A DNA stretch of 64,000 nucleotides from Smithella sp. PtaU1.Bin162 (lineage in GTDB: Bacteria > Desulfobacterota > Syntrophia > Syntrophales > Smithellaceae): the NCBI GenBank assembly GCA_002068015.1, contig MVRV01000138.1, positions 1-64,000 on the forward strand, written 5' to 3'. Positions 47,812 through 64,000 of this stretch are shown piece by piece. Numbering within the stretch: position 1 is the first letter of the stretch; every line of letters begins with the position of its first letter. The notes below the pieces were generated by a model. The model saw nothing but the letters and a program-made list of their open reading frames with translations. It was not told where the DNA came from and made no database searches. Position numbers and translations under genes: made by a program.

Positions 47812-48321
47812 TTATGTTGTTTTTTCCAATGCGGCCACTTCATCCACATTCATCACCCGGTCAATATCGAGCAAAATTTTTACCGTTCCTCCGGACTTGG
47901 CCATTCCTAAAATAAAATCAGTATTCAACAGTGTACCGAAATTCGGCGTATCTTCAATATCCACTTCTTTTATATTGAGTACCTCAGAAACGGCATCAAC
48001 CAGGAATCCGACAAGGATATGACCTGCTTCTCTTTTAATTTCGATAATAATTATACAGGTACGGTCGGTAAATTCTATCTGCGGCATCCCGAACTTGAGT
48101 TTTAAATCAATGACCGGAATTACCTTGCCTCGCAAATTGATCACTCCTTTAACATAAGCAGGTGTCTGCGGGACAGGAGTAATTGCAATAATTCCAATAA
48201 TTTCTTTAATTTTTAAAATACCTGCGCCATATTCTTCTCCGGCAAGGGTAAATGTTAGATATTTCCCCTCACGCCGGAGAGATTTTTCCGACTTACTTTC
48301 AGCCATAATTGCCGCTTCCAT
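47812..48321 (-). CDS. cheW: CheW-like chemotaxis coupling protein
   Basis: Links receptors to CheA. Motifs include YLTFTLAGEEYGAGILKIKE, VINLRGKVIPVIDL, FGMPQIEFTDRTCIIIIEI and ILLDIDRVMN. The leading 20 residues are charged and variable. GGAGGGG lies 6 nt before the ATG. No cheA or receptor gene is in the window, so it is an orphan copy or serves a different sensory system. It is divergent from the hydrogenase signalling module, across a 300-bp spacer that holds a large palindrome. Confidence 0.92.
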   Translation of the reverse strand: MEAAIMAESKSEKSLRREGKYLTFTLAGEEYGAGILKIKEIIGIIAITPVPQTPAYVKGVINLRGKVIPVIDLKLKFGMPQIEFTDRTCIIIIEIKREAGHILVGFLVDAVSEVLNIKEVDIEDTPNFGTLLNTDFILGMAKSGGTVKILLDIDRVMNVDEVAALEKTT

Positions 48322-48409: not shown

Positions 48410-48443
48410 ATTTTTCTTAAAAACTTAAGTTTTTAAGAAAAAT
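48410..48443. promoter_or_regulatory. Perfect 34-bp palindrome upstream of cheW and the hydrogenase module
   Basis: The left arm ATTTTTCTTAAAAACTT is exactly mirrored by the right arm, with no loop. It lies in the divergent spacer, 89 nt from the cheW ATG and about 60 nt before the TATAAT of the plus-strand genes. It could be an operator for a dimeric regulator or, if transcribed from either side, a hairpin terminator. Confidence 0.5.
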
Positions 48444-48623: not shown

Positions 48624-48998
48624 TTGAAACTGAGAGAAGTAAAAGAAATCCTCGATGCAGAAGTAATTATTGGTGAAGACAAACTTGATCTGGAAGTAAA
48701 AACGGCTTTTGGAGCCGACTTGATGAGTGATGTTCTGGCCTTCGCTAAAGCCGGCAGTTTATTGCTTACCGGTCTCACCAATGATCAGGTTATAAGGACC
48801 GCGGATATTCTCGACATTGCCGCAATCATCATGGTTCGCGGTAAAAGACCTGCTTCCGAAGCAATTGTTTTAGCTAAAGGATTGAAGATACCTATCTTGA
48901 CGACCAAATACATTCTTTTTGAAACAGCAGGGCGCCTATACGCCAAAGGCATAGTTGGTTGTTTGGAAAAAGTTGATAACGCCAGTGGACGCAACTGA
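48624..48998 (+). CDS. DRTGG-domain protein, first copy (hydrogenase-linked signalling)
   Basis: 124 residues; the whole length is a DRTGG domain, as found next to CBS domains and in bifurcating-hydrogenase operons. Recognised by LDLEVKTAFGADLMSDVLAF, LLLTGLTNDQVIRTADIL and IVLAKGLKIPILTT. The start is TTG at 48624, with AAGGAG seven bases upstream; the frame extends further only by running through the leader hairpin. It overlaps the following HATPase gene by about 14 nt. The ligand is unknown. Confidence 0.8.
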   Translation: MKLREVKEILDAEVIIGEDKLDLEVKTAFGADLMSDVLAFAKAGSLLLTGLTNDQVIRTADILDIAAIIMVRGKRPASEAIVLAKGLKIPILTTKYILFETAGRLYAKGIVGCLEKVDNASGRN

Positions 48999-49422
48999 CA
49001 AAACACCTTATCAACGCAGTTTTTATGTAGAGGGCGGTAATTTTACTTACGCGGGTATTGTTTCCACAAGTATTAAATCCATTCTCAAACAAATGGGATT
49101 GCCTGCTGACGTGGTAAGAAAAGCGGCAATTGTTTCATACGAATCAGAAATTAATATCGTTTCTTATGCAAAAAAAGGAGTAATTAAACTCACGGTCGAT
49201 TCCCAGACCATTCAGATAGAGGCAATTGATGAAGGTCCCGGAATTCCCAACATTGATCTGGCCATGCAGGAAGGTTACTCCACTGCTGACCAGAAAATTC
49301 GGGAAATGGGATTTGGCGCCGGAATGGGGTTGTGTAACATCAAGAATTATTCCGACACATTTAATATTTCTTCGGAAATCGGCAAAGGAGCTTTTCTGAA
49401 GATGATAATCGACAGGCATTGA
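48985..49422 (+). CDS. RsbT/RsbW-type ATP-binding protein (HATPase)
   Basis: Small GHKL-fold kinase domain without a receiver or dimer region, like the anti-sigma serine kinases RsbW/RsbT. N-box SYESEINIVSYAKKG, G1 box EAIDEGPGIPNIDLAMQEGYS, G2 box GFGAGMGLCNIKNYSD. The start is GTG at 48985 (inside the end of the DRTGG gene), with TTG 48973 as alternative. It may phosphorylate its DRTGG neighbours, which is inference from gene order. Confidence 0.8.
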   Translation: MDATDKTPYQRSFYVEGGNFTYAGIVSTSIKSILKQMGLPADVVRKAAIVSYESEINIVSYAKKGVIKLTVDSQTIQIEAIDEGPGIPNIDLAMQEGYSTADQKIREMGFGAGMGLCNIKNYSDTFNISSEIGKGAFLKMIIDRH

Positions 49423-49440
49423 TTACTTACGGGTCTTATT

Positions 49441-49782
49441 GTGAATATTGAAACGATCATCAAAGAATTGAATTTAAAACTAAGGTCTGCAACAGGCGAC
49501 CTTAAAAAAAATATATCGGGAGGTTACACGGGAGATCTGCTGAGCGATGTTATGGCAAATTCGCACGAAGGAGATATTTGGATAACTAGGCAGGTGCACC
49601 AGAATATCGTCGCCGTCGCCAGCCTTAAAGATCATGCGGGTATTATTCTCATCAATTCCTGCGAGCCGGCAAAAGATACATTGGAAAGAGCCGCGCAGGA
49701 AAATATCCCTATCATGGTTTCAGACTTGAGTGCATTTGAATTATCGGGTAAAGTTTATGATCTGCTGGCAAAAAAAGATTAA
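49441..49782 (+). CDS. DRTGG-domain protein, second copy
   Basis: 113 residues, GTG start at 49441. It resembles the first DRTGG protein in the core GGYTGDLLSDVMANSHEGDI and LERAAQENIPIMVSD, but the two are clearly diverged. Ligand and partner are unknown. It stands between the HATPase and PHP genes in a tight same-strand run. Confidence 0.75.
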   Translation: MNIETIIKELNLKLRSATGDLKKNISGGYTGDLLSDVMANSHEGDIWITRQVHQNIVAVASLKDHAGIILINSCEPAKDTLERAAQENIPIMVSDLSAFELSGKVYDLLAKKD

Positions 49783-49829
49783 TTTGCCGATGGAACTTTG
49801 AGGATAATCCCGAATAATTACGGCAAACA

Positions 49830-50570
49830 ATGATGCTGAAAGTTTTTAACTGTGATTTTCATATTCACACATGTCTGTCACCCTGTGCCGATCTGGATAT
49901 GCATCCGCGGGCTCTGGTGGAAAAAGCACTGGAAGCAAAACTTGACCTCATAGCCATCTGCGATCATAATTCCTCGGAAAACGTACCTTTCGTAATGAAT
50001 GCAGCTAGTGGCAAGGCTTTAAATGTTATTTCCGGAATGGAAATAACGACAAGCGAAGAAGTCCATGTATTGGCGATCTTCGACTCCCTCGACAACCTTG
50101 CCCGCATACAACGGGTTGTTTATCAGCATTTAAGCGGGAAAAATGACGAAAGACTTTTCGGTGTTCAGGCTGTTGTTAATGAAAATGGCGAAGTTGAAGG
50201 AATCAACGAAAAATTACTGATAGGTGCGACCGACTTATCATTGGATAAATTATTAATTCATATTCATGAATTTAACGGTTTGGCAATAGCTGCACATATA
50301 GATAGAGAAAGTTTCAGTGTTTTGAGTCAGCTGGGTTTCATCGATAAAAAGGTAAAATTCGATGCACTGGAAATAACACCGGCAACAGGAATTGCCGGAG
50401 CAAGAATAAAATATCGGGATCTGAGTAATTATTCTTTTCTTGTTTCATCGGATTCCCATTTTTTAAAAGATATAGGCACGGCAAGAACAAAAATTGTTTT
50501 ACGGGAAGCGACGATAGCAGAATTAAAGATGGCCTTTGCCGGCCAAAATGGCCGCCGGGTTTTGGAGTAA
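49830..50570 (+). CDS. PHP-domain metal-dependent phosphoesterase
   Basis: Metal ligands are in DFHIHTCLSPCADLDMHP, AICDHNSSEN, ISGMEITTSEEVHVLAIF, AAHIDRESFSV and SSDSHFLKDIGTA, which are all PHP motifs. 246 residues, single domain. Two adjacent ATG codons serve as start and no strong ribosome binding site is visible. In this position it may act as the phosphatase arm of the signalling module, but family members vary widely. Confidence 0.85.
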   Translation: MMLKVFNCDFHIHTCLSPCADLDMHPRALVEKALEAKLDLIAICDHNSSENVPFVMNAASGKALNVISGMEITTSEEVHVLAIFDSLDNLARIQRVVYQHLSGKNDERLFGVQAVVNENGEVEGINEKLLIGATDLSLDKLLIHIHEFNGLAIAAHIDRESFSVLSQLGFIDKKVKFDALEITPATGIAGARIKYRDLSNYSFLVSSDSHFLKDIGTARTKIVLREATIAELKMAFAGQNGRRVLE

Positions 50571-50641
50571 CACAATTCCGCTTTCAGAGAATAACGCTGC
50601 AACCGGCATAAGGAAGCCTGCGAGTGTAAATTGGTGTAAAA

Positions 50642-51190
50642 ATGCTTGAACTTGCCCAGCATATTCTTGATATTGCGGAAAACTCCATCCGGGCCGGCGC
50701 TAAATTAATAGTCATTTCCGTTAATGAAGATACTGAAAAGAATTTATTAACGATTGATATAAATGATGACGGCTGCGGAATGAAGGAAGAAGAAGTGAAA
50801 AAGGCACTTGATCCGTTTTATACGACAAAAACCGTCCGGCCGGTTGGTTTGGGACTTCCTCTCTTAACGGATGCTGCCCGCAAATCGGGAGGAAAGCTGG
50901 ATTTGCAATCGCAGACAGGCAGAGGAACAAAGGTTACCGCTACTTTCCGGATTGATCATATTGATCGACAACCGCTGGGAAACATACCGGCCACATTAAT
51001 CACTCTTATTGCCGCCAATTCAGAGGTTGATTTTATTTACGATCATCGGCATAATGGCCGGCAATTTAAACTGGATACTCGAGAGATACGCGATGAAATT
51101 TATGATGTGCCTATTTACCATCCTGAAATTATTAAATATATCAGGAATATCATTGAAGAAGGTCTCTGTGAAATTGAAACAGAGGCCTGA
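50642..51190 (+). CDS. Second HATPase (GHKL) protein, histidine-kinase-like
   Basis: The ATP-binding boxes are complete: N-box HILDIAENSIRAGAK, G1 INDDGCGMKEEEV, an F-box-like DPFYTTK, G2 GLGLPLLTDAARK, and GRGTKVTATF. A C-terminal 60 residues (HIDRQPLGNIPATLITLIAA onward) is not part of the kinase fold and I do not recognise it. It lacks a phosphoacceptor domain. Its stop is 30 nt before the NuoE-like gene, which ties the module to the hydrogenase. Confidence 0.8.
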   Translation: MLELAQHILDIAENSIRAGAKLIVISVNEDTEKNLLTIDINDDGCGMKEEEVKKALDPFYTTKTVRPVGLGLPLLTDAARKSGGKLDLQSQTGRGTKVTATFRIDHIDRQPLGNIPATLITLIAANSEVDFIYDHRHNGRQFKLDTREIRDEIYDVPIYHPEIIKYIRNIIEEGLCEIETEA

Positions 51191-52205: not shown

Positions 52206-55200
52206 ATGAAAATTTTTCGTTCACATATATTACTTTGTGGAGGTACCGGTTGCCAGGCTTCCGGCAGTCTGACCGTAAAAAAAGCTCTGTTGCAGGAGTT
52301 GGATAAGAAACATCTGGCTGATGAAATAAAAGTAGTGGAAACCGGTTGTAACGGATTTTGTGCCCTGGGACCCATCATGGTCGTGTACCCCGAAGGCATC
52401 ATTTATATCTCAGTCAAAGCCGCAGATATTCCGGAACTGGTAGAAGAACACCTGATCAAGGGAAGAGTTCTGGGACGTCTTTTATATCACGAACCATCTA
52501 CGGACAAAGTCATCCCGACGATGCAGGATATTCCCTTTTTCGCACTCCAGGAGTTGCGCGTGTTGAGAAACCGCGGGTTAATTGATCCGGAGAAGCTCGA
52601 AGAATATATCGCCCGTGACGGTTACGCCGGTATGGCCAAAGCGCTGACCGAGATGAAGCCGGAAGAAATCGTGAGCGAAGTTCTTAATTCCGGCTTACGC
52701 GGCCGCGGCGGAGCAGGTTTTCCTACAGGACTGAAATGGAAATTCGCCGCTCAGTCTAAAAGCGATATAAAATATGTTTTATGCAATGCCGACGAAGGCG
52801 ACCCCGGTGCCTTCATGGACAGGAGCGTACTCGAAGCTGATCCTCATTCCGTCCTCGAGGGAATGGTAATTGCGGCAAAAGCAATTGGATCAAAGCAGGG
52901 ATATATTTACTGCCGTGCCGAATATCCGCTGGCAATTCACCGTTTGAATATCGCCATCGGCCAGGCCAAAGAAGCCGGTCTTTTAGGCAAAAATATTTTA
53001 GGAACGGGCTTTGATTTCGATCTGGAAATTTATCAGGGAGCAGGTGCCTTTGTCTGCGGCGAAGAAACGGCTTTAATGACTTCCATTGAAGGTAAACGAG
53101 GCATGCCCCGTCCCCGACCGCCCTTCCCGGCAGTTGCCGGTCTCTGGCAGAAACCTAGTATCTTAAATAATGTCGAGACGCTGGCCAACGTCGGTCAAAT
53201 CATCCTGCGCGGCGCCAAGTGGTACGCATCCGTCGGCACCGAAAAAAGCAAAGGAACAAAAGTTTTCGCTTTAACCGGTGATGTCAATAATGTGGGTCTG
53301 GTCGAAGTTCCCATGGGAACTTCTCTGGGAACGATTGTCTACGACATCGGCGGCGGTATTCCCAAAGAAAAGAAATTTAAAGCGGCGCAATTAGGCGGTC
53401 CTTCCGGCGGCATGATTCCCATTCAGCATCTGAATGCTCCCATTGATTATGAAAAAGTCGTCGAATTAGGCGCCATCATGGGTTCCGGCGGTTTGATCGT
53501 TATGAACGAAGACAAATGCGCCGTGGATATGGCAAGGTTTTTCATGGATTTCTGTCAAGATGAATCCTGCGGCAAATGCACTCCCTGCCGTGAAGGCACC
53601 AAGCGCATGCTGGATATTTTGACCAATATCACGAAAGGCAAGGGAAAAGAAGGCGATATCGAGCTTCTGGAAGAAATGGCCGGTGTAATTAAAAATGCGG
53701 CTTTATGCGGACTGGGTCAAACGGCACCGAATCCAGTTCTGAGCACGATCCGTTATTTCCGCAACGAATACGAAGATCACATCCGCAATCACCGCTGCCG
53801 CGCCACCGTTTGTTCAGCGCTGTTTAAATCGCCCTGTCAGCATACCTGTCCGATTGAAATGGATATTCCTTCTTACATCGCTCTTGTTCGCGCAGGCAGA
53901 TTTGAAGATGCTTACAAAATATTATTGCAGACCAACCCCTTCCCGTCCGTCTGCGGTAGAGTCTGTGATCATAAATGTCAGACCAAATGCCGTCGCGGCA
54001 ATATGGACGAACCACTCGCGATTAAATTTTTGAAACGCTTTATTACCGACAATGCACCGCGGCCCAAGGTTGATCCGGTCCCCGTAACCCGCAAAGAAAA
54101 GGTCGCCGTAGTCGGTGCCGGTCCGTCCGGACTCACCGCCGCCCGTGATCTCGCCCTGCGTGGTTATAAAGTTGTCGTTTTTGAGGAACTTCCTTTTGCC
54201 GGTGGAATGCTGCGTTGGGGAATTCCCGCTTATCGTCTGCCCCGCAATATTCTGGATGGGGAAATTGACACCATCAAGGCCCTCGGCATAGAAATTAAAT
54301 TGAATACAAGAGTGGGGCGCGATATATCCTTCGCCAATATCGAAAAAGACTTCGACTTCATCTACCTCGCCTGCGGCGCTCATAAGAGCCAGAAAATGAA
54401 TGTCCCCGGTGAAGATTTGAAAAATGTTTACGGCGGCGTCGAATTCCTGCGCGATTTCAATGCCAACGAAGAAAAATGGTTAAAAGGAGAAAAACAACTT
54501 GGTAAAAAAGTAGCCGTGGTCGGTGGTGGAAACTCGGCTATTGACGCCGCCCGTGTAGCACTGCGCCTCGGTGCCGATGTAACTATTCTCTATCGCCGTT
54601 TAAGACAGGATATGCCCGCTGCGGAAGAAGAAATCAAGGCAGCTGAAGATGAAGGCATCAAGATCGAATACCTTGTCGCTCCATTAAGGATCGAAGGAAC
54701 AAAAGGAAAAGTCAGTTCCGTTTCCTGCCAGCGGATGAAGCTCGGCGATTATGATAACAGCGGCCGCAAAAAACCGGTTGCCGTCGCCGGTTCCGAATTT
54801 ACGCTGAATATTGACACAATCATTGCGGCCATAGGGCAGGTGCCGGACATGAGTTTTGTTGATGCGGCAAGCAAAATCGAGGTTAAACGGGACTGCCTGG
54901 TCGTCGGCAATGTTTATAAATCACGCACACGGAATATCCGCTATTTTGCGGGTGGTGACGCCGTAACCGGGCCTGATACCGTTATTGCCGCTATTGCCGC
55001 CGGACATCAGGCTGCCGACGACATTGATACTTCCATCAGGAAAGCAAACGGTGAGCCGGCTTACGAAAAACCGGCGGAAGAAAAAATCGACGTTCCGCTG
55101 GTCATCGACGAAGAGACGGTAGAAGCTCCTCAAATGCCCATGCCGGAGATGGAAAGCGCTCTCCGCAAGGCCGGCTTTGCAGAAGTGGAGCTTGGATTTA

Positions 55201-55259
55201 CCAAAGAAGATGCCATGAAAGAAGCCTGCCGCTGCCTGCGTTGCGATGCCGAGCTTTAA
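52206..55259 (+). CDS. NuoF/HydB-like subunit fused to a GltD/NfnB-like NADPH:FAD module
   Basis: 1017 residues. The order is: N-terminal [2Fe-2S] domain (CGGTGCQASGS and CNGFCALGP, 1-90); NuoF core with the NAD/FMN loop RGRGGAGFPTGLKW (about 165), GAGAFVCGEETALM, the SLBB part, and the N3-type [4Fe-4S] site ESCGKCTPCREGT (about 453). The GltD/NfnB-like half starts near 530: a Fer4_20 region with CQHTCP and CGRVCDHKCQTKC, an FAD site GAGPSGLTAARDLAL (about 637), and an NADP-type site GGGNSAIDAARVAL then LYRR (about 775). The usual ferredoxin tail of HydB is replaced. Expected to join NAD(H) and NADP(H) chemistry in the hydrogenase. Ribosome binding site AAGGAGGG. Confidence 0.92.
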   Translation: MKIFRSHILLCGGTGCQASGSLTVKKALLQELDKKHLADEIKVVETGCNGFCALGPIMVVYPEGIIYISVKAADIPELVEEHLIKGRVLGRLLYHEPSTDKVIPTMQDIPFFALQELRVLRNRGLIDPEKLEEYIARDGYAGMAKALTEMKPEEIVSEVLNSGLRGRGGAGFPTGLKWKFAAQSKSDIKYVLCNADEGDPGAFMDRSVLEADPHSVLEGMVIAAKAIGSKQGYIYCRAEYPLAIHRLNIAIGQAKEAGLLGKNILGTGFDFDLEIYQGAGAFVCGEETALMTSIEGKRGMPRPRPPFPAVAGLWQKPSILNNVETLANVGQIILRGAKWYASVGTEKSKGTKVFALTGDVNNVGLVEVPMGTSLGTIVYDIGGGIPKEKKFKAAQLGGPSGGMIPIQHLNAPIDYEKVVELGAIMGSGGLIVMNEDKCAVDMARFFMDFCQDESCGKCTPCREGTKRMLDILTNITKGKGKEGDIELLEEMAGVIKNAALCGLGQTAPNPVLSTIRYFRNEYEDHIRNHRCRATVCSALFKSPCQHTCPIEMDIPSYIALVRAGRFEDAYKILLQTNPFPSVCGRVCDHKCQTKCRRGNMDEPLAIKFLKRFITDNAPRPKVDPVPVTRKEKVAVVGAGPSGLTAARDLALRGYKVVVFEELPFAGGMLRWGIPAYRLPRNILDGEIDTIKALGIEIKLNTRVGRDISFANIEKDFDFIYLACGAHKSQKMNVPGEDLKNVYGGVEFLRDFNANEEKWLKGEKQLGKKVAVVGGGNSAIDAARVALRLGADVTILYRRLRQDMPAAEEEIKAAEDEGIKIEYLVAPLRIEGTKGKVSSVSCQRMKLGDYDNSGRKKPVAVAGSEFTLNIDTIIAAIGQVPDMSFVDAASKIEVKRDCLVVGNVYKSRTRNIRYFAGGDAVTGPDTVIAAIAAGHQAADDIDTSIRKANGEPAYEKPAEEKIDVPLVIDEETVEAPQMPMPEMESALRKAGFAEVELGFTKEDAMKEACRCLRCDAEL

Positions 55260-55287: not shown

Positions 55288-57045
55288 ATGTCAACCGTAA
55301 AATTGACTATTGATAATCGTAAAATTGAAGTTGAAGCGGGTACTACAATTCTGGAAGCAGCCAAGAAAAACGGAATTAAAATACCAACCCTTTGCGCCTG
55401 GACGGAAATAGGACATACGCCGGGCGCCTGCCGGGTTTGCATGACGGAAGTGGAAGGCCAGAAAAGTCTCATCGCCGCCTGTGTTTTTCCCGTAAGTGAA
55501 GGAATGGTCGTCCATACCAACACGGAAAAAGTGCGTCAGGCCCGGAAAATGGTTGTAGAGCTCCTGCTCGCCAATCATCCCCAGGAATGCAACTTCTGTG
55601 TGAGAAACGGTAATTGTGAATTGCAGAAAGTAGCCGAATTTGTGGGACTGCGGGAAGTTCGTTTCGATTACACCCAATTTCCCAAAGAAGGCATGATCGA
55701 CCGATCCAGCCCTTCGATTGTCCGGGACAACCGCAAATGCATCGAATGCCATCGCTGTGTGGCGGTTTGCGAAAATATCCAGACGGTTAATGTTTTGACT
55801 CCGGCGCACCGCGGCAGTGACGTGAAAGTTGTGCCGGCTTTTGATCTGCCGCTTATTGAATCCAATTGCGTCGCCTGCGGTCAATGCATTCTGGCGTGCC
55901 CGGTGGGAGCATTATACGAAAAAGATGACGTTGATGCGGTTTGGAAAGTCCTGCAGGATCCGCAAAAACACGTCGTAGTTCAGGAAGCTCCGGCCATACG
56001 GGCTGCTCTGGGCGAAGAATTCGGACTGCCCGCAGGTACGCTGGTTACGGGAAAAATGATCGCCGCACTGCGCAGGCTTGGTTTTGCCAAAGTTTTCGAC
56101 ACAAACTTCACTGCGGATCTGACGATCATTGAAGAAGGAAACGAATTGCTTAAACGTGTAAAAGAGGGCGGCAAACTGCCGATGATTACTTCGTGCAGCC
56201 CCGGCTGGATCAAATTCTGCGAACACTTTTATCCCGAATTACTGGGTCATCTCTCCACCTGCAAATCCCCGCAGCAGATGTTCGGTGCTCTGGCCAAAAC
56301 CTATTACGCTGAAACAGCAGGGATCGATCCCCAAGATATCGTTTCCATTTCCATTATGCCTTGCACGGCGAAAAAATTTGAAGCCCAGCGCCCGGAAATG
56401 GCAAGCAGCGGTTTCCGTGACGTGGATTATGTATTGACGACCAGAGAACTCGCCCGCATGATCAAAGAAGCCGGAATTGATTTTCTTAATCTGCCGGATG
56501 AGGAATATGACGCACCGATGGGCGAATATACCGGAGCCGCCACTATTTTTGGTGCAACCGGCGGCGTTATGGAAGCAGCATTGCGCACTGTTTATGCCGT
56601 CGTTACCGGAGAAAATTTACCGAGCCTCGATATTACCCCCGTGCGGGGATTGGAAGGAGTAAAGGAAGCAACCGTAAAAGTCGGAGCACTGGGCGATGTG
56701 AAAGTTGCGGTTGCCCATGGATTAGGTAATGCCCGCAAGATCATGGATAAAATCCGTGACGGTAGCGCCGATTATGCTTTTATTGAAATCATGTGTTGCC
56801 CGGGAGGCTGCATTGCCGGAGGCGGAGAACCCATCCCGACAAATAATGAAATGAGAGCTCTGCGCTCTGCCGCCCTCTATCGTGATGACGGAAAAGTACA
56901 AAAATTTCGCCAGTCGCACGAGAATCCTTCCATTACAAAGATTTACGATAAATTTTTAAAGGAACCGCTGGGGCATAAATCTCATCAGCTTCTGCATACT
57001 AAATATAAAAAGAGGGGCACTGAACTGCCTCAGGGAAAAGATTGA
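55288..57045 (+). CDS. hydA: [FeFe] hydrogenase catalytic subunit HydA, multisubunit (NAD(P)-linked) type
   Basis: 585 residues. The N-terminal [2Fe-2S] domain (CAWTEIGHTPGACRVC) is followed by the His-Cys3 cluster (HPQECNFCVRNGNC), two [4Fe-4S] motifs (CIECHRCVAVC and CVACGQCILACP), and the H-cluster domain. L1 reads TSCSPGW, L2 MPCTAKKFE, and L3 IMCCPGGCIAGGG. The C-terminal small-subunit domain is fused (QSHENPSITKIYDKF). No Tat signal, so it is cytoplasmic. Start at ATG 55288 with TAAGGAG. Likely partner of the three upstream subunits. Confidence 0.95.
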   Translation: MSTVKLTIDNRKIEVEAGTTILEAAKKNGIKIPTLCAWTEIGHTPGACRVCMTEVEGQKSLIAACVFPVSEGMVVHTNTEKVRQARKMVVELLLANHPQECNFCVRNGNCELQKVAEFVGLREVRFDYTQFPKEGMIDRSSPSIVRDNRKCIECHRCVAVCENIQTVNVLTPAHRGSDVKVVPAFDLPLIESNCVACGQCILACPVGALYEKDDVDAVWKVLQDPQKHVVVQEAPAIRAALGEEFGLPAGTLVTGKMIAALRRLGFAKVFDTNFTADLTIIEEGNELLKRVKEGGKLPMITSCSPGWIKFCEHFYPELLGHLSTCKSPQQMFGALAKTYYAETAGIDPQDIVSISIMPCTAKKFEAQRPEMASSGFRDVDYVLTTRELARMIKEAGIDFLNLPDEEYDAPMGEYTGAATIFGATGGVMEAALRTVYAVVTGENLPSLDITPVRGLEGVKEATVKVGALGDVKVAVAHGLGNARKIMDKIRDGSADYAFIEIMCCPGGCIAGGGEPIPTNNEMRALRSAALYRDDGKVQKFRQSHENPSITKIYDKFLKEPLGHKSHQLLHTKYKKRGTELPQGKD

Positions 57046-57107: not shown

Positions 57108-57271
57108 AAATGAACGACTCTGCCGCAAGCAGCGGGGAATATAACCCGGGATCCCGAATAGCTTCGCTCAAACTCGCTCGCCCTGCATAAGCCGGGCTTT
57201 GCTTTCGGGATCAATTCCACTTTCGCTTCAAACTTCATTGCACTCGCTTTCAGTGAGTGTCATTGATTTAA
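57108..57271 (-). repeat. Dispersed repeat element, copy 2 (164 bp)
   Basis: Reverse-oriented relative of the element at 35612-35845. The shared blocks differ by about ten substitutions, and two internal stretches are absent here. It sits between the hydA terminator and aspA, so any promoter for aspA-hydF must be within or just after it. An open frame reading through it is an artefact shared by both copies. Confidence 0.8.
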
Positions 57272-57292: not shown

Positions 57293-58693
57293 ATGTCAGA
57301 CACACGGATTGAACATGATTTTTTGGGAGAGCTGCCTGTTCCGGCCGAAGCTTACTGGGGAATTCATACTCAGAGAGCGATTTCTAATTTTCCTATCAGC
57401 GGTATCAAGGTCAATCCCTGCCTCATTGCAAGCCTGGCGCTTGTCAAAAAATCCTGCTGCCTGGCCAATTGCGAAACAGGTCATCTTAATTCCGGAAAAG
57501 CCGCAGCGATTATCAATGCCTGTGATGAAATTGCCGAAGGCGGACTCTCCGATCAATTTCCCGTGGATGCACTGCAAGGCGGCGCCGGAACATCAACCAA
57601 TATGAATATCAACGAAGTCATTGCCAACCGTGCCATTGAAATTCAGGGCGGCAATAAAGGTGATTATTCTCTGATTCATCCTCTGGAAGATGTTAATCTG
57701 CATCAATCCACCAATGACGTCTATCCCTCGGCAATTAAAGTCGCCGGGATTTACCGGCTCCGTAATTTAGCAAAAGCCATTGCCGATCTGCAAGGCGCTT
57801 TTCAGGAAAAGGAAAAAGAGTTCGGCCGGATAATCAAAATCGGGAGAACGGAATTGCAGGAAGCTGTTCCTATTACCCTGGGAGCGGAATTTTCCGCTTT
57901 TGCCGAAGCAATTTCGCGCGACCGATGGCGGACTTCTAAATGTGAGGAACGTCTGCGCGTAGTAAATCTGGGAGGAACTGCTGTTGGTACCGGACTTACC
58001 GCACCCCGGGATTACATTTTCCTCGTCATTGAAAAATTAAGAGAAGCAACCGGACTGGGATTGTCACGCGGTGAAAACCTGCCTGCTGAAACCGCCAATG
58101 CCGATTCCTTTGTTGAAGTTTCCGGAATTCTTAAAGCCCATGCCGTAAATCTGCTGAAAATCGCCAATGACTTACGTTTAATGAACTTCCTCGGAGAAAT
58201 AAAACTACCTCAGTTGCAGGCAGGTTCTTCAATCATGCCCGGAAAAGTGAATCCTGTTTTGCTGGAGGCGGCAATTTCCGTAGGCTATAAAGTTATCGCC
58301 AATGACGGCATCGTAACCGCAACCGCCAGCCGCGGCACGCAACAGATCAACGAATTTCTCCCGCTGCTGGCCCACTCCCTTCTGGAAACACTTGATTTAC
58401 TGATCAATATTGATAAACTACTGGCCAATCATGTCCGGGGCATCACCGCCGGCGTTGATAAATGCCGGGAATATTTCGAACACAGTCCGATGATTATTAC
58501 CGCTCTTTTACCTGTCATCGGTTATGAACGGGCAACTCAGTTAATGGCTGAATTTACGCGGACCGGGACAAAAAATATGCGGAAATTTTTGGAAGAAAAA
58601 CTGGGCGGATCCATTGTGGAAAAAGTCTTTTCTTCCGTCAGCCTGACTGCATTAGGTTACAAGGATTATGGAAAAGACACCGAAAAGCAATAG
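57293..58693 (+). CDS. aspA: Aspartate ammonia-lyase in the hydrogenase maturation cluster
   Basis: Splits aspartate to fumarate and ammonia. The superfamily signature GSSIMPGKVNP is present, with GGAGTSTNMNINEVIANRA and HQSTNDVYPSAIK. 466 residues is normal. There is no strong ribosome binding site. It overlaps hydF by 26 nt, so it is co-translated with the maturase. In several [FeFe] hydrogenase loci aspA sits beside hyd genes; supply of the ammonium that forms the bridging amine of the H-cluster is a possible reason. Fumarase or related activity cannot be ruled out by eye. Confidence 0.88.
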   Translation: MSDTRIEHDFLGELPVPAEAYWGIHTQRAISNFPISGIKVNPCLIASLALVKKSCCLANCETGHLNSGKAAAIINACDEIAEGGLSDQFPVDALQGGAGTSTNMNINEVIANRAIEIQGGNKGDYSLIHPLEDVNLHQSTNDVYPSAIKVAGIYRLRNLAKAIADLQGAFQEKEKEFGRIIKIGRTELQEAVPITLGAEFSAFAEAISRDRWRTSKCEERLRVVNLGGTAVGTGLTAPRDYIFLVIEKLREATGLGLSRGENLPAETANADSFVEVSGILKAHAVNLLKIANDLRLMNFLGEIKLPQLQAGSSIMPGKVNPVLLEAAISVGYKVIANDGIVTATASRGTQQINEFLPLLAHSLLETLDLLINIDKLLANHVRGITAGVDKCREYFEHSPMIITALLPVIGYERATQLMAEFTRTGTKNMRKFLEEKLGGSIVEKVFSSVSLTALGYKDYGKDTEKQ

Positions 58694-59918
58694 ACTGCAC
58701 ATTGCTCTCATGGGACGTACTAATGTCGGCAAATCCAGCCTGCTTAACCTGATGGTGGGGCAGGACATTGCCATAACTTCACCTCTGGCCGGTACAACTA
58801 CGGATGTTGTCGAAAAGGCCATGGAACTTTTGCCGCTGGGACCGGTTCTTTTTCTCGATACCGCCGGACTGGATGATACCTCGCAACTTTCCCGCGCCCG
58901 ACTGGAAAAAACGGCAAAAATATTTGACCGCGCCGATGTTATTTTTCTTCTAACGGAAGCCGATATTTGGACCGACTTTGAAGAAACCGTCCTGGTTCAG
59001 GCTAAAACCAGAAGAGTACCAGTTCTGGTTATTATCAATAAAATTGATTTAAAGGCTCCCTCGGCAGATTACCTGGAAACAATAAAACAAAAAACCGGTC
59101 GTGCAATCAGTGTTTCGTGCGCGAATATCTCCTTGCGTAATGCCTTTCTCGACGAATTAAAACAGCGTCTGCTGGAAATTACGCCTGCCGATTTTATTGC
59201 CCCTCCGTCACTTATCGGAGATTTACTTCCACCCGGCAGTATTGCCGTTCTCGTAGTTCCCATTGATTTACAGGCACCCAAAGGCAGGCTTATTCTACCT
59301 CAGGTACAGACAATTCGGGATGCTCTGGACAATGATGCGGCAACTCTGGTTGTCAAAGAACGGGAATTATCCGCCGTGCTGGCCAATCTGAAAAATCCGC
59401 CGGCAATCGTCGTAACGGACTCTCAAGCCGTTCTCAAAGTGACCGCCGATGTTCCTAAAAACATTCCCGTCACAACCTTCTCCATATTATTTGCCAGACA
59501 AAAATCGGATCTCTCCGCCATGGCAAGAGGGGCTGCAAGCATCGGCCGATTAAAGCCCGGCGACCGGGTTTTAATCGCGGAGGCCTGTTCCCACCATGCT
59601 CTCGAAGACGATATCGGCCGTATAAAAATCCCCCGTTGGCTCAGGCAATATCTGGGCTTTGATGTGCAAATCGATATTTCCGCAGGCCGTGATTATCCGG
59701 AGAACCTCAATCAATATAAACTGATCATCCATTGCGGGGCCTGCATGCTGACACGCCGGGAAATGCTCACCCGCTTACATAAAGCCGAAGAAGCGAGTGT
59801 CTCAGTCACCAATTATGGTGTGGCGATTTCTTTTCTCCAGGGTGTAATCCGGCGCACACTGGAACCATTTCCTTACGCGCTGGAAGCTTTTGAAAAAGAA
59901 ATGAAGCAGAATTCATGA
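58668..59918 (+). CDS. hydF: [FeFe] hydrogenase maturation GTPase/scaffold HydF
   Basis: Scaffold that receives the 2Fe precursor and hands it to HydA. N-terminal GTPase: Walker A ALMGRTNVGKSSLLN, G3 LDTAGLDD and G4 INKIDL. The C-terminal cluster site has the HydF pattern C-x-H then H-C-x2-C: ACSHHALEDDIGRI and HCGACMLTRREML. 416 residues is full length. The start overlaps the 3' end of aspA. The adjacent hydG and two hydA genes agree with the assignment. Confidence 0.95.
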   Translation: MEKTPKSNRLHIALMGRTNVGKSSLLNLMVGQDIAITSPLAGTTTDVVEKAMELLPLGPVLFLDTAGLDDTSQLSRARLEKTAKIFDRADVIFLLTEADIWTDFEETVLVQAKTRRVPVLVIINKIDLKAPSADYLETIKQKTGRAISVSCANISLRNAFLDELKQRLLEITPADFIAPPSLIGDLLPPGSIAVLVVPIDLQAPKGRLILPQVQTIRDALDNDAATLVVKERELSAVLANLKNPPAIVVTDSQAVLKVTADVPKNIPVTTFSILFARQKSDLSAMARGAASIGRLKPGDRVLIAEACSHHALEDDIGRIKIPRWLRQYLGFDVQIDISAGRDYPENLNQYKLIIHCGACMLTRREMLTRLHKAEEASVSVTNYGVAISFLQGVIRRTLEPFPYALEAFEKEMKQNS

Positions 59919-60153: not shown

Positions 60154-60197
60154 AGTTCATGTCGGATAATGAATTTACTTTAGAAAGGAAAAGGGAA

Positions 60198-61478
60198 ATG
60201 AATGTAACCGCAAAAACATATCAAAAAGGAGAAATTCCCGGCGTAATTGCGATCAATGCCACCGTTTGTAAAGGATGTGATGCCTGCAAACGCCACTGCC
60301 CCACCGGGGCAATCACAGGCATGTTCGGCACGACGCACCGTATAGATGTTGATCTCTGCCTGAGCTGCGGACAATGTCTCATCAATTGCCCGTTCGGCGC
60401 TCCCTATGAAACATCGGATACGGTAGATGAAGTCATCGCCAAACTCAAAGACCGTAATAACACGGTTGTCGGTATTATCGCTCCGGCCGTGCGCGTGGCC
60501 ATCGGTGAAGACTTCGGCCTTCCGGCCGGCTCTCTGGTCACAGGTAAACTTTATGGTTCAATGAAAAAAGCCGGTTTCGAAATTCTTGATAATAATTTTA
60601 CCGCTGATTTAACCATTATGGAAGAAGGAACCGAATTCATCACCCGCGCCCGTCATGCGCTTTTCGGCGAAAAAAGCGAACATGGCGGGGAAATCGGTCC
60701 GCTGCCTCAGTTTACTTCCTGCTGCCCGGCGTGGGTCCGGTTTGTCGAAACCAGGTATCCGACATTGATTCCCCATTTATCGTCGGCGAAATCGCCCCAA
60801 CAGATGGCCGGTACTGTCGCCAAAACATACGGCACCAATGTTTGGAAAAAATCACCGGAAAGTATTTATACGGTCGGCATCATGCCCTGCACGGCCAAAA
60901 AACTGGAAGCCTCCCGTCCGGAATTTAACGCCGCCTATAAATACAACAAAAAAAACGGCCGCGGGCTTACGAATAAACCCTATCCTGATGTGGACACCGT
61001 TTTGACCACTCGCGATTTATCACGTCTGTTCAAAAAGCTCAAAATCGACTTGGCGCAGGAAGAAGAAGTCGCAGGCGGATCGCTGCTTGCCGACTACACG
61101 GGTGCAGGCACAATCTTCGGCAATACGGGCGGCGTTATGGAAGCAGCGCTGAGAACCGCTTACGCTGTTCTGACCGGCAGTGAATTAAAACCGCTAGAGT
61201 TCAAACCGGTACGGGGATTACAAGGCATGAAGAGTGCATCAGTGACACTCAAAGACGCCAAATACAACAAGGAAGTTACGGTAAAAGTGGCTGTTGTACA
61301 CAATATGGCTGAAAATATCCAACCGGTCGTAAATGAAGTGCTGGCCGGCCGTTCACCCTATCATTTCATTGAAGTGATGAACTGTCCGGGAGGTTGCATC
61401 AACGGCGGCGGGCAGCCTGTTTGCAGCAGCGGTTCTTCCTGGATCAGTGCTATCCGTCCCTGGTTTGCGTGGAAATAA
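60198..61478 (+). CDS. [FeFe] hydrogenase large subunit of a membrane-linked complex
   Basis: 426 residues from ATG 60198 (AAAGG and AGGG upstream). Two [4Fe-4S] motifs (CKGCDACKRHCPTGA and CLSCGQCLINCPFGA) precede the H-cluster domain with canonical motifs: L1 TSCCPAW, L2 MPCTAKKLE, L3 EVMNCPGGCINGGG. Lacks the [2Fe-2S] and His-Cys3 domains and has no fused small-subunit domain. No signal peptide of its own. The next gene encodes a separate small subunit with a Tat motif, so the pair is probably exported together as in Desulfovibrio HydAB. Confidence 0.94.
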   Translation: MNVTAKTYQKGEIPGVIAINATVCKGCDACKRHCPTGAITGMFGTTHRIDVDLCLSCGQCLINCPFGAPYETSDTVDEVIAKLKDRNNTVVGIIAPAVRVAIGEDFGLPAGSLVTGKLYGSMKKAGFEILDNNFTADLTIMEEGTEFITRARHALFGEKSEHGGEIGPLPQFTSCCPAWVRFVETRYPTLIPHLSSAKSPQQMAGTVAKTYGTNVWKKSPESIYTVGIMPCTAKKLEASRPEFNAAYKYNKKNGRGLTNKPYPDVDTVLTTRDLSRLFKKLKIDLAQEEEVAGGSLLADYTGAGTIFGNTGGVMEAALRTAYAVLTGSELKPLEFKPVRGLQGMKSASVTLKDAKYNKEVTVKVAVVHNMAENIQPVVNEVLAGRSPYHFIEVMNCPGGCINGGGQPVCSSGSSWISAIRPWFAWK

Positions 61479-61498
61479 CATAATAAAAGGAGAAAAAT

Positions 61499-61819
61499 AT
61501 GGAAAAACAAAGTTATCAATACATAGAAAACCCGCTGCAAGTAACACGACGGGAATTTATCACTATCGGCGGAATCGTTGTTGCTTTTCTGGCCATACCC
61601 ACCGTCTGGATAACGCTGGTAACTTCATCGAGCAGTCGCTATCTTCAGGCGCGGACAAAAGGCTTGTATCAGGATGATACAAAAGCCGCAGTCCGGGTCA
61701 GTCATGGCAATAAATCCGTGGCCCGTTATTATAAAGAATTCGGCGGCACTCCCCTGGGACAGATCTCCGAAGAATTGCTGCACACAAAATACATTAATCG
61801 AACAAAAGTTCTTTCCTGA
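61499..61819 (+). CDS. [FeFe] hydrogenase small subunit with Tat signal
   Basis: The twin-arginine motif TRREFITIGG is followed by a hydrophobic stretch (IVVAFLAIPTVWITLV). The C-terminal half is the iron-hydrogenase small-subunit domain (VRVSHGNKSVARYYKEFG, ISEELLHTKYI). The signal is likely to export the folded large subunit by hitch-hiking, or to serve as a membrane anchor. AAAGGAG lies before the ATG. 20 nt from the large subunit. Confidence 0.9.
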   Translation: MEKQSYQYIENPLQVTRREFITIGGIVVAFLAIPTVWITLVTSSSSRYLQARTKGLYQDDTKAAVRVSHGNKSVARYYKEFGGTPLGQISEELLHTKYINRTKVLS

Positions 61820-61833
61820 TAGGAGGTTAGTTT

Positions 61834-62493
61834 ATGTATAGTGAAAAAACCATTTTAAAACATCCCTGGAGTGTAAGAATATTCCATTATCTGTTGATTC
61901 TCAGTTTCCTGCCGCTGGCCATGACCGGGATCATTCTATATTTTAAACCGCTGAGCGAAAGCGCCGTGAATCTGGCCATGCAGGTTCATGTGGTCTGCGG
62001 AGTTATCCTGACCATAGATGCAATTGCTTATTTGCTGATTGGCTTTAACCGCGTTATTCTCTTCATTAAAAGAATCTTCACCATGTCCGTGACCGATGTC
62101 AAATGGTTCATGATTCTGGGAGGCTATCCGCAAAAATTATTATTAAGGAAGAAAGTTACCGTTCCACCAATGGGAAAATACAATTCCGGACAGAAGCTTT
62201 TCGGCATCTGCGTTTTCACCGGAGGTTCGGTTTTAATATTCACCGGATGGATATTATGGGCTTTTCCGCATCTTGTACCCGGAGAGACTGTTTATCTTCT
62301 TGGTTTATTACACACTATCTCTGCCTGGATCCTGACACTATTTTTACCGGTTCACCTGTTCCTGGGAATTTATATGTTTGACGACTTCAAGGCAATGATC
62401 CTGCATGGTAAAATTCCTTATGAAGAAGCAAAGGAAACGGCACCACTGTGGGTGGAAAAAGAAATTATTCCCATATCCAGGAATCAGTGTTGA
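61834..62493 (+). CDS. Cytochrome b subunit (FdnI/thiosulfate-reductase-like)
   Basis: Four membrane helices with histidines that can hold two b hemes: RIFHYLLILSFLPLAMTGI, QVHVVCGVILTIDAIA, a third segment IFTGWILWAFPH, and LLHTISAWILTLFLPVHLF. The layout matches the b-type quinone-binding subunit of formate dehydrogenase-N. AGGAGG precedes the ATG. As third gene of the operon it should pass electrons between the exported hydrogenase and the menaquinone pool. Confidence 0.9.
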   Translation: MYSEKTILKHPWSVRIFHYLLILSFLPLAMTGIILYFKPLSESAVNLAMQVHVVCGVILTIDAIAYLLIGFNRVILFIKRIFTMSVTDVKWFMILGGYPQKLLLRKKVTVPPMGKYNSGQKLFGICVFTGGSVLIFTGWILWAFPHLVPGETVYLLGLLHTISAWILTLFLPVHLFLGIYMFDDFKAMILHGKIPYEEAKETAPLWVEKEIIPISRNQC

Positions 62494-62639: not shown

Positions 62640-64000
62640 ATGATCAAAGATTTTATTGATGATGCAAAAATCGGAGATATACTCGAAAAAGCGAAGAATC
62701 CTCCGAAAGAAAAAGTACGGGAAATAATTGCCAAAGCAAAAACGCTGGAGGGGCTTATGCCCGGTGAAGTCGCTGTCCTGCTGCAAACGGAAGACGATGA
62801 ACTGATTACCGAAATCCAGCAGGCGGCACACTCTGTTAAAGAAGCCATCTACGGTAACCGTCTTGTTTTGTTTGCTCCGCTTTATATCGCCAATCTTTGC
62901 GCCAACAACTGCCTGTACTGCGGATTCCGCCGCGACAATAAAGATTTAAACCGCGTTGCCCTGACCATGGAACAAATTGAGAGTGAGGTGCGTGTTCTGG
63001 AACGCGAGGGACACAAGCGGCTTCTCATGCTCTGCGGTGAGCACCCTACCCGCTCCAGTCTGGAATATTTCATGGAAGCAATAGAAACCGCTTATGCAAC
63101 TAAAACGGAAAAAGGAGGAGAAATTCGCCGGATTAATGTGGAAATCGCCCCGCTGCAAGCCGAGGAATTCAAACTTTTAAAAAAAACGAACATCGGCACA
63201 TATGTTTTATTTCAGGAAACATATCACCATGCTACTTATAAAACAATGCACCCCAGCGGACCCAAAAAAGATTATGTCCGGCGACTTACCGCCATGCACC
63301 GCGCCCAGGAAGGCGGGATCAACGACGTCGGCATCGGTGCCCTCTTCGGTCTTTATGACTATAAGTTCGAAGTCCTGGGGTTGCTCTTCCATGCCCTGCA
63401 ACTCGAGCAGGATTGCGGTGTCGGGCCTCATACCATTTCCATTCCCCGGCTGGAACCGGCTTTTAATGCCCCGGCGGCAATTAAACCGCCGCATCCGGTG
63501 AGCGATCATGATTTTAAGAAACTCGTCGCCATTATTCGTCTTGCTGTTCCTTACACCGGCATGATCCTGAGTACCCGGGAAAATCCGGAAATACGCTCCG
63601 AAGTTTTCGAACTGGGCATTTCCCAGATCAGCGCCGGATCACGCACCAACCCCGGCGGCTATCAGGAAGATTCGAGTGACGCTTTTCGTGCCGCTCAGTT
63701 CAACCTCGGCGATACCCGGACTCTCGATGAAGTAATTTTCGACATAACAACAAAAGGACATATTCCCAGTTTCTGCACAGCTTGTTACCGTCTCGGACGC
63801 ACCGGTAAGGATTTTATGGATCTGGCCAAACCTGGTCTGATCCAGAAATTCTGCCAGACCAATGCACTTTTTACATTCAAAGAATATTTAATGGACTACG
63901 CAACCCCAAGCACACGAGAGGCCGGTGAGAAATTAATTCAACAAACAGTCCGGGAAAAAATTAAAACGGGAATGAAAAAATCGGTTTTGAATAAACTTCA
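62640..64000 (+). CDS. hydG: [FeFe] hydrogenase H-cluster maturase HydG (cut off by window end)
   Basis: Radical SAM tyrosine lyase that makes CO and cyanide for the H-cluster. The first cluster motif is CANNCLYC (CX3CX2C). The C-terminal second cluster is present (CTACYRLGRTG and a later Cys), which separates HydG from ThiH. Other motifs are MLCGEHPTR, VLFQETYHHATY and PRLEPAFNAP. About 453 codons are in the window, and the family has about 470, so only the last few residues are missing. HydE is expected beyond the end. Confidence 0.95.
   Translation, partial: MIKDFIDDAKIGDILEKAKNPPKEKVREIIAKAKTLEGLMPGEVAVLLQTEDDELITEIQQAAHSVKEAIYGNRLVLFAPLYIANLCANNCLYCGFRRDNKDLNRVALTMEQIESEVRVLEREGHKRLLMLCGEHPTRSSLEYFMEAIETAYATKTEKGGEIRRINVEIAPLQAEEFKLLKKTNIGTYVLFQETYHHATYKTMHPSGPKKDYVRRLTAMHRAQEGGINDVGIGALFGLYDYKFEVLGLLFHALQLEQDCGVGPHTISIPRLEPAFNAPAAIKPPHPVSDHDFKKLVAIIRLAVPYTGMILSTRENPEIRSEVFELGISQISAGSRTNPGGYQEDSSDAFRAAQFNLGDTRTLDEVIFDITTKGHIPSFCTACYRLGRTGKDFMDLAKPGLIQKFCQTNALFTFKEYLMDYATPSTREAGEKLIQQTVREKIKTGMKKSVLNKL

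Follow-up and report, generated by a model that had tools for sequence, protein, structure and literature searches.

What do five small genes of signalling type do directly upstream of a hydrogenase operon? This question is raised by a stretch of 64,000 nucleotides from Smithella sp. PtaU1.Bin162 (contig MVRV01000138.1, positions 1 to 64,000), referred to as the window, in which two DRTGG-like proteins (DRT1 and DRT2), two GHKL ATPases (HAT1 and HAT2) and a PHP phosphoesterase are encoded ahead of an [FeFe] hydrogenase. An initial annotation, made from the sequence alone, took these genes for a signalling module that reports on redox or nucleotide state and occurs with bifurcating hydrogenases. 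Here we report that they are the HydS-less version of a six-gene cassette, DRT1-HAT1-HydS-D-DRT2-PHP-HAT2, in which HydS-D is a sensory hydrogenase of group D, and that the common denominator of its partner enzymes is the NuoE-HndB-NuoF NADH module, not the hydrogenase. The genes concerned are as follows (aa, amino acids).

48624..48998, + strand: DRT1, DRTGG-domain protein, 124 aa, TTG start; Pfam PF07085, 41.4 bits (cut-off 25.2)
48985..49422, + strand: HAT1, single-domain GHKL ATPase of SpoIIAB/RsbT type; Pfam HATPase_c, 33.7 bits (cut-off 26.4), and HATPase_c_2, 27.5 bits (cut-off 27.4); NCBIfam spIIAB, 2.3e-12
49441..49782, + strand: DRT2, second DRTGG-like protein, 113 aa; Pfam DRTGG, 20.9 bits, below the cut-off of 25.2; conserved motif
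49830..50570, + strand: PHP, metal-dependent phosphoesterase, 246 aa; Pfam PF02811, 33.9 bits (cut-off 26.4), and PF13263
50642..51190, + strand: HAT2, GHKL ATPase with a specific C-terminal extension of ~75 aa; Pfam HATPase_c, 58.4 bits
51221..51715, + strand: HydC/HndA, NuoE-like [2Fe-2S] subunit; Pfam PF01257, 177.5 bits
51755..52138, + strand: HndB-like thioredoxin-fold subunit; Pfam PF01257, weak; position kept in relatives
52206..55259, + strand: HydB/HndC (NuoF-like) fused to a GltD/NfnB-like NAD(P)H-binding domain, 1017 aa; Pfam Complex1_51K, NADH_4Fe-4S, Fer4_20 and Pyr_redox_2
55288..57045, + strand: HydA, [FeFe] hydrogenase catalytic subunit; NCBIfam FeFe_hydrog_A6, 914 bits (cut-off 765)

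The tight same-strand run into a nuoE-like gene, its five genes and their coordinates were correctly described from the start: successive gaps from DRT1 to HAT2 are -14, 18, 47 and 71 bp, followed by 30 bp between HAT2 and HydC and by 39, 67 and 28 bp from there to HydA, in the order DRT1, HAT1, DRT2, PHP, HAT2, hydC, hndB, hydB, hydA. A terminator scan gave no + strand terminator-like site at the HAT2-NuoE junction, and the nearest + strand site past HydA lies at 57240-57260. With HydA above its cut-off and NuoE and NuoF subunits in the same gene run, the enzyme is an NADH-linked [FeFe] hydrogenase of HydABC/Hnd type.

The cassette and its group D sensory hydrogenase

That the genes form a conserved module of signalling type, as first proposed, is supported at several scales. 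Of 40 relatives, 33 have a full-length HAT2 ortholog. Gene order is kept in the 30 relative loci read and, with few exceptions, in a set of 80 named Syntrophales-like loci, the best 80 listed, which were collected via the PHP protein and of which the closest are Syntrophaceae and Smithella; NuoE/HydC lies directly 3' of HAT2 in 69 of these 80, and several of the others stop at contig ends. Such conservation is well in excess of chance. In a phylum sample of 296 genomes (199 genera), a PHP ortholog is present in 66 (65 at E <= 1e-65 and one split copy) and full-length HAT2 in 65 (E <= 1e-54), all of them within the 66 PHP genomes, with one further partial HAT2 match outside these (G059); counted by genus, each protein occurs in 44 of 199. 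The naive P of this co-occurrence, about 2.5e-65, treats related genomes as independent and is therefore descriptive only. Synteny alone does not account for the association, because in some genomes (G120, G144 and G166) PHP and HAT2 are found on different contigs, and we consider the gene-level association close to certain. The same cassette, with a Syntrophales-type PHP 64-75% identical, is also found in metagenome-assembled genomes titled Actinobacteria and Spirochaetes (L033 and L056), where the titles probably reflect wrong binning or labels.

The sixth gene encodes an [FeFe]-hydrogenase-like protein, found among the cassette genes of Syntrophus (L109) and Thermodesulfovibrionia (L078, L080 and L091), with Fer4 motifs at the N-terminus, an FeS motif (PF04060) at the C-terminus, a divergent Fe_hyd_lg_C domain and no PAS domain. 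At the Met position of HydA's second H-cluster motif it has mostly Ser or Thr, a pattern that matches the description of TamHydS, the group D/M2e enzyme of Thermoanaerobacter mathranii (PMC8163306). HydS-D occurs in 29 of the 296 genomes, and all 29 carry the module (naive P 3.5e-22, kinship ignored); among the 60 neighbourhoods examined, which come from 18 sampled families, it is present in 21 neighbourhoods and 11 families, with its gene flanked in almost every case by HAT1 and DRT2. Fusions join it to DRT1 (L080) and to DRT2 (L180, L181 and L182), DRT1 is fused to HAT1 in L201, and a pair of CBS domains is fused to HAT1 in L174 and L196, two families whose loci show no HydS-D. A sensor that in our sample is never found without the same partners, and that is fused to two of them in different lineages, names a candidate signalling chain. 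The initial annotation had placed the reporting of redox or nucleotide state in the five genes themselves; the sensor of redox or H2 is instead usually this sixth gene, which the window genome lacks.

The cassette also occurs in Nitrospirota, Bacteroidota and Bacillota. A complete six-gene cassette of Parabacteroides distasonis (L244, 6505-10276) stands alone between aminopeptidase and TPR genes, with no hydrogenase enzyme beside it; in Subdoligranulum, DRT1-HAT1-HydS-D-DRT2-PHP is divergent from HydC-HAT2-HndB-HydB-HydA. Both sequences are plasmid-collection records, and that of P. distasonis is probably a chromosomal piece, because gyrA is present.

TamHydS resembles HydS-D of the cassette, which has two N-terminal [4Fe-4S] motifs, no PAS domain, an H-domain whose cysteines are retained, an FeS motif (PF04060) at the C-terminus and a neighbouring histidine kinase-like ATPase; the passages found on TamHydS describe the enzyme and do not mention DRTGG, PHP or second GHKL genes (PMC8163306, PMC13104023). 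In all Thermoanaerobacter, the bifurcating hydrogenase is reported to be preceded by genes for a histidine kinase and a group D-like hydrogenase (PMC3608648). Unlike the TamHydS setting, the window genome has the cassette without HydS-D. In a 2020 paper on TamHydS, signal transmission by sensory [FeFe] hydrogenases is called an open question (PMC8163306), and the cassette is probably the missing signalling partner of HydS sensors, which makes this partner testable after years of spectroscopic study of the sensors. In line with the initial annotation, which knew of no established function for such sets, a search of the open-access literature, with subscription papers mostly outside it, gave no description of the DRTGG/PHP/second GHKL set, of its fusions or of its formate dehydrogenase (FDH) or complex I settings; the one paper that mentions both 'DRTGG' and 'hydrogenase' deals with DVU3031, an AAA/DRTGG protein.

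In the window's own genome, a group C HydS (HydS-C; Fer4, H-domain, FeS and PAS) adjoins a SpoIIE-type phosphatase on contig C140, like the group C sensory hydrogenases with PAS and Ser/Thr phosphatase of Ruminococcus albus (PMC6776011) and Thermotoga maritima (HydS; PMC10055695). Unlike in those two species, however, this HydS-C lies on another contig, and it adjoins the cassette in some Smithellaceae only. First, in L050, L053, L061 and L076, a set of HydA fusion, HydS and SpoIIE immediately precedes DRT1 in the same orientation, the two being separated by a single small HATPase gene that is encoded on the opposite strand. Second, in L254, HydS-C-SpoIIE lies downstream of HydA. HydS-C with its SpoIIE-type (serine/threonine-type) phosphatase is thus a plausible input in the window organism. 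As a general sensor of the module, HydS-C is unsupported, with the module in 14 of 34 genomes that have it and in 52 of 262 others (odds ratio 2.8). Beside HydS-C/SpoIIE on contig C140 (L116, 7634-11071) we also noted a 1145-aa fusion of GltD-like, HydA and thioredoxin-like [2Fe-2S] parts.

Partner enzymes of the cassette

A NuoE, HndB or NuoF gene is within reach in 46 of the 60 neighbourhoods, several others being cut by contig ends. A molybdopterin subunit (FDH/NuoG-like) appears in 28 and [FeFe] HydA in seven, plus one partial H-domain; formate dehydrogenases are commoner partners of the module than hydrogenases. In family f45 an in-frame stop follows DHCARL and divides the FDH in two; we read this stop as a putative selenocysteine site. 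The link to bifurcating hydrogenases is nonetheless real, and the co-occurrence with hydA that the initial annotation had proposed to check was found to be an enrichment, although a moderate one: the module is carried by 17 of the 33 genomes with a HydA over the cut-off versus 49 of 263 others. We rejected the hydrogenase as sole partner on these same counts, most module genomes being without HydA.

Complex I provides the third setting. In L174 (5199-19901) and L178, which belong to two families, cassette genes lie inside the complex I operon between nuoD and nuoE, in the order nuoD, DRT2 (or HAT1-DRT2), PHP, HAT2, nuoE, nuoF, nuoG, and nuoH onward. L174 has an HndB-like gene between nuoE and nuoF, and the 880-aa subunit of these loci scores higher with the FdhA model than with NuoG, both below cut-off. 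A reduced DRT1-HAT1-PHP set follows nuoLMN in family f33. Because the cassette is found beside hydrogenase and FDH and within complex I operons, the denominator common to its partners is NuoE-HndB-NuoF. The link to FDH and complex I suggests that NADH-dependent electron flow through H2, formate and respiration has a single point of control, and this flow decides the energetics of syntrophic methane-forming communities. As a separate observation, in family f21 (L161, L165, L169 and L176) the module and NuoEFG-like genes stand between beta-oxidation genes (acyl-CoA dehydrogenase, hydroxyacyl-CoA dehydrogenase and thiolase) and ETF genes.

The NuoE-HndB-NuoF-HydA set downstream of the cassette in the window is that of the HndABCD and HydABC(DE) hydrogenases of A. 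woodii, S. fructosivorans and T. maritima. HAT2 may be the counterpart of hydE, an additional gene in the operon of A. woodii. Unlike in these enzymes, the NuoF subunit of the window carries a GltD-like NAD(P)H domain in addition; the 1017-aa NuoF-GltD/NfnB-like fusion (52206-55259) is kept in relatives and suggests that the hydrogenase may touch both NADH and NADPH.

Protein parts and a candidate serine switch

The initial annotation described both GHKL proteins as kinase-like and without phosphoacceptor domains. The latter is confirmed by Pfam, which detects neither a HisKA nor a receiver domain in HAT1 or HAT2, so that these are not two-component proteins; the former holds for HAT1. Its best curated match is SpoIIAB (in the PDB, SpoIIAB 1til at 1.4e-4), and in 127 sequences the N-box residues Glu53 and Asn57 are conserved at 100% and the long lid GFGAGMGL at 98-100%. 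HAT2, which has no clear kinase N-box, carries MutL/TopoVI-B-like motifs (DIAENSIRAGA, DPFYTTK and GLGLP), and its AF2 model (pLDDT 86.9) matches MutL/PMS2, TopoVI-B, histidine kinases (WalK and ZraS) and BCKDK in Foldseek, the structural matches to BCKDK having 33-36% identity across about 85 residues. DIAENSIRAGA resembles MutL motif I with Asp in place of the catalytic Glu, on which account HAT2 may not be a kinase but an ATPase that works by conformational change.

DRT1 is a member of the DRTGG family, with an AF2 model (pLDDT 92.7) whose best Foldseek match is the DRTGG structure 2IOJ (TM 0.78), while DRT2 is the only weak assignment among the five genes, although its sequence aligns with DRT1. 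Profile matches of the DRT proteins to designed 'Pizza' beta-propellers were rejected as short-repeat artefacts. The two proteins have Asp32-Leu33-x-Ser35 in common, with Ser35 in 258 of 258 sequences combined: in DRT1 it lies in DLMSDVL and is invariant in 132 of 132 orthologs; in DRT2, where the motif is GGYxGDLLSDVM..WITxQxHxN, Asp32, Ser35, Trp47, Thr49, Gln51 and His53 are each found in 126 of 126 sequences. In the DRT1 model, helix 34-40 begins beside Ser35, a placement that we liken, as an assumed analogy, to that of the phosphoserine of SpoIIAA. The solved DRTGG domain 3L2B has Glu at the aligned position. DRT1 shares its fold (AF2/Foldseek) with the regulatory DRTGG domains of AF1212 and of the CBS-DRTGG pyrophosphatase (PF07085); unlike these, DRT1 and DRT2 are stand-alone proteins with a DLxSDV serine motif. 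The PHP protein has its metal-binding set (HxH, D45/H46, E71, H79, H156 and D208xH210) intact in 99-100% of 138 sequences, and its closest curated families are nucleases and nucleotidases, e.g. RNase Rnm and 3',5'-nucleoside bisphosphate phosphatase.

These parts recall the RsbT/RsbS and SpoIIAB/SpoIIAA systems, which likewise combine a single-domain GHKL kinase-like protein, with N-box Glu/Asn and no HisKA, with a small partner whose invariant serine is at a helix N-terminus and a phosphatase in the set; a SpoIIE-type phosphatase, which is not part of the cassette itself, lies next to it in some relatives. On this analogy, the cassette would report H2 or the redox state of the cytoplasm to enzymes that are based on the NuoE-HndB-NuoF module. 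HAT1 would phosphorylate the invariant serine of DRT1, DRT2 or both, and PHP, joined where present by the SpoIIE-type phosphatase beside HydS-C, would dephosphorylate them. Their phosphorylation state would then set which partner they hold, HAT1 or HAT2, and HAT2, as an ATP-dependent conformational switch, would relay the output to hydrogenase, formate dehydrogenase or complex I, or to the expression of these, although which of them is acted on, and in which sense, is conjectural. The input would be HydS-D in most lineages; in others it would be the CBS domains of the HAT1 fusions, and in the window organism perhaps the HydS-C/SpoIIE pair encoded elsewhere in the genome.

We give about even credence to a serine kinase/phosphatase switch through which the window's HydS-less form of the cassette reports H2 or redox state to these enzymes, and we see its kinase and phosphatase chemistry as something that could go either way. 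It is only tentatively that we go further and propose a new phosphorelay, in which a GHKL serine kinase with DRTGG rather than STAS partners would relay the signal from the group D [FeFe] sensor of H2. In anaerobes of several phyla, gut bacteria included, this relay would control a whole class of enzymes with an NADH module, namely hydrogenase, formate dehydrogenase and respiratory complex I.

Several points weigh against the switch. First, unlike in the RsbT and SpoIIAB systems, the partner has a DRTGG and not a STAS fold, so that phosphoserine partner switching would hold by analogy; a Pfam scan of the cassette gave no STAS protein, nor is there a sigma factor in it, the phosphatase is PHP rather than PP2C, and there is a second, MutL/TopoVI-B-like GHKL protein and an iron-sulphur hydrogenase-like sensor. 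Second, the invariant Ser35 may also have a structural or ligand-binding role, phosphoserine would be an unusual substrate for a PHP protein phosphatase, and HAT2 has Asp10 at the position of MutL's catalytic Glu. Third, none of the four Fe_hyd_lg_C genes of the window genome is HydS-D, so that the complete six-gene form is not found there, and in the phylum as a whole the association between HydS-C and the module is weak. Finally, our P-values count kindred genomes as independent.

A rather unlikely alternative is that DRTGG directly senses a nucleotide or NAD(H), which PHP, as a nucleotidase, makes or destroys, and that both GHKL proteins are ATP-dependent readers, with no protein phosphorylation. 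The nuclease and nucleotidase relatives of PHP point in this direction, as do the CBS domains fused to HAT1 in two families and the nearest solved DRTGG structures, among them the CBS-DRTGG region that regulates an inorganic pyrophosphatase (3L2B/3L31). However, the Glu/Asn N-box of serine kinases is kept in every HAT1, and what is universal in DRT1 and DRT2 is a serine and not a ligand pocket, Asp32 and Thr49 being nearly universal.

Less probable still is a gate on enzyme assembly or activity, in which HAT1 or HAT2 would directly phosphorylate or conformationally clamp the NuoE/HndB/NuoF module, as the GHKL serine kinases BCKDK and PDK do with dehydrogenase complexes. Such a gate would suit the BCKDK and MutL/TopoVI-B matches of HAT2, the position of HAT2 between HydC and HndB in Subdoligranulum, and genes that accompany NuoE-HndB-NuoF whatever the catalytic partner, including at the nuoD-nuoE site of complex I; but the similarity to BCKDK is confined to the ATP-binding core, Parabacteroides has the whole cassette with no NuoE-HndB-NuoF enzyme nearby, and the HydS and DRTGG parts are left unexplained. 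Ancestral clustering, or joint horizontal transfer within a redox island, with the five genes not functionally coupled to the enzymes, is strongly disfavoured and very improbable: one inherited cluster could account for synteny within Syntrophales, the genomes being phylogenetically non-independent, but PHP and HAT2 are co-retained even at different loci, the cassette is constant while its partners switch, and member-member fusions recur in separate lineages.

Neighbouring features of the window

The gene run is flanked by a divergent cheW gene on one side and by lyase and hydF genes on the other.

47812..48321, - strand: CheW, divergent neighbour outside the conserved cassette; Pfam PF01584; upstream in some relatives only
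58668..59918, + strand: HydF, [FeFe]-hydrogenase maturase, 3' of the operon; Pfam HydF_dimer and HydF_tetramer

The TTG start of DRT1 is preceded by AAGGAG, and its N-terminus aligns with relatives; a promoter scan 5' of DRT1 gave no convincing sigma-70 site. The divergent cheW/DRT1 intergenic region contains a perfect 34-bp palindrome at 48410-48443, ATTTTTCTTAAAAACTTAAGTTTTTAAGAAAAAT, whose 26-bp core is single copy in the genome; no comparable palindrome was found upstream of DRT1 in 72 relatives. The first H-cluster motif of HydA (55288-57045) is TSCSPGW, and it is TSCCPAW in the other two group A-like HydA proteins of the genome. A second [FeFe] hydrogenase is encoded at 60159-62493, with a separate small subunit that has a twin-arginine-like N-terminus and with a cytochrome b561; this enzyme is probably periplasmic and membrane-bound, and is followed at 62640 by a radical-SAM/BATS gene (HydG-like).

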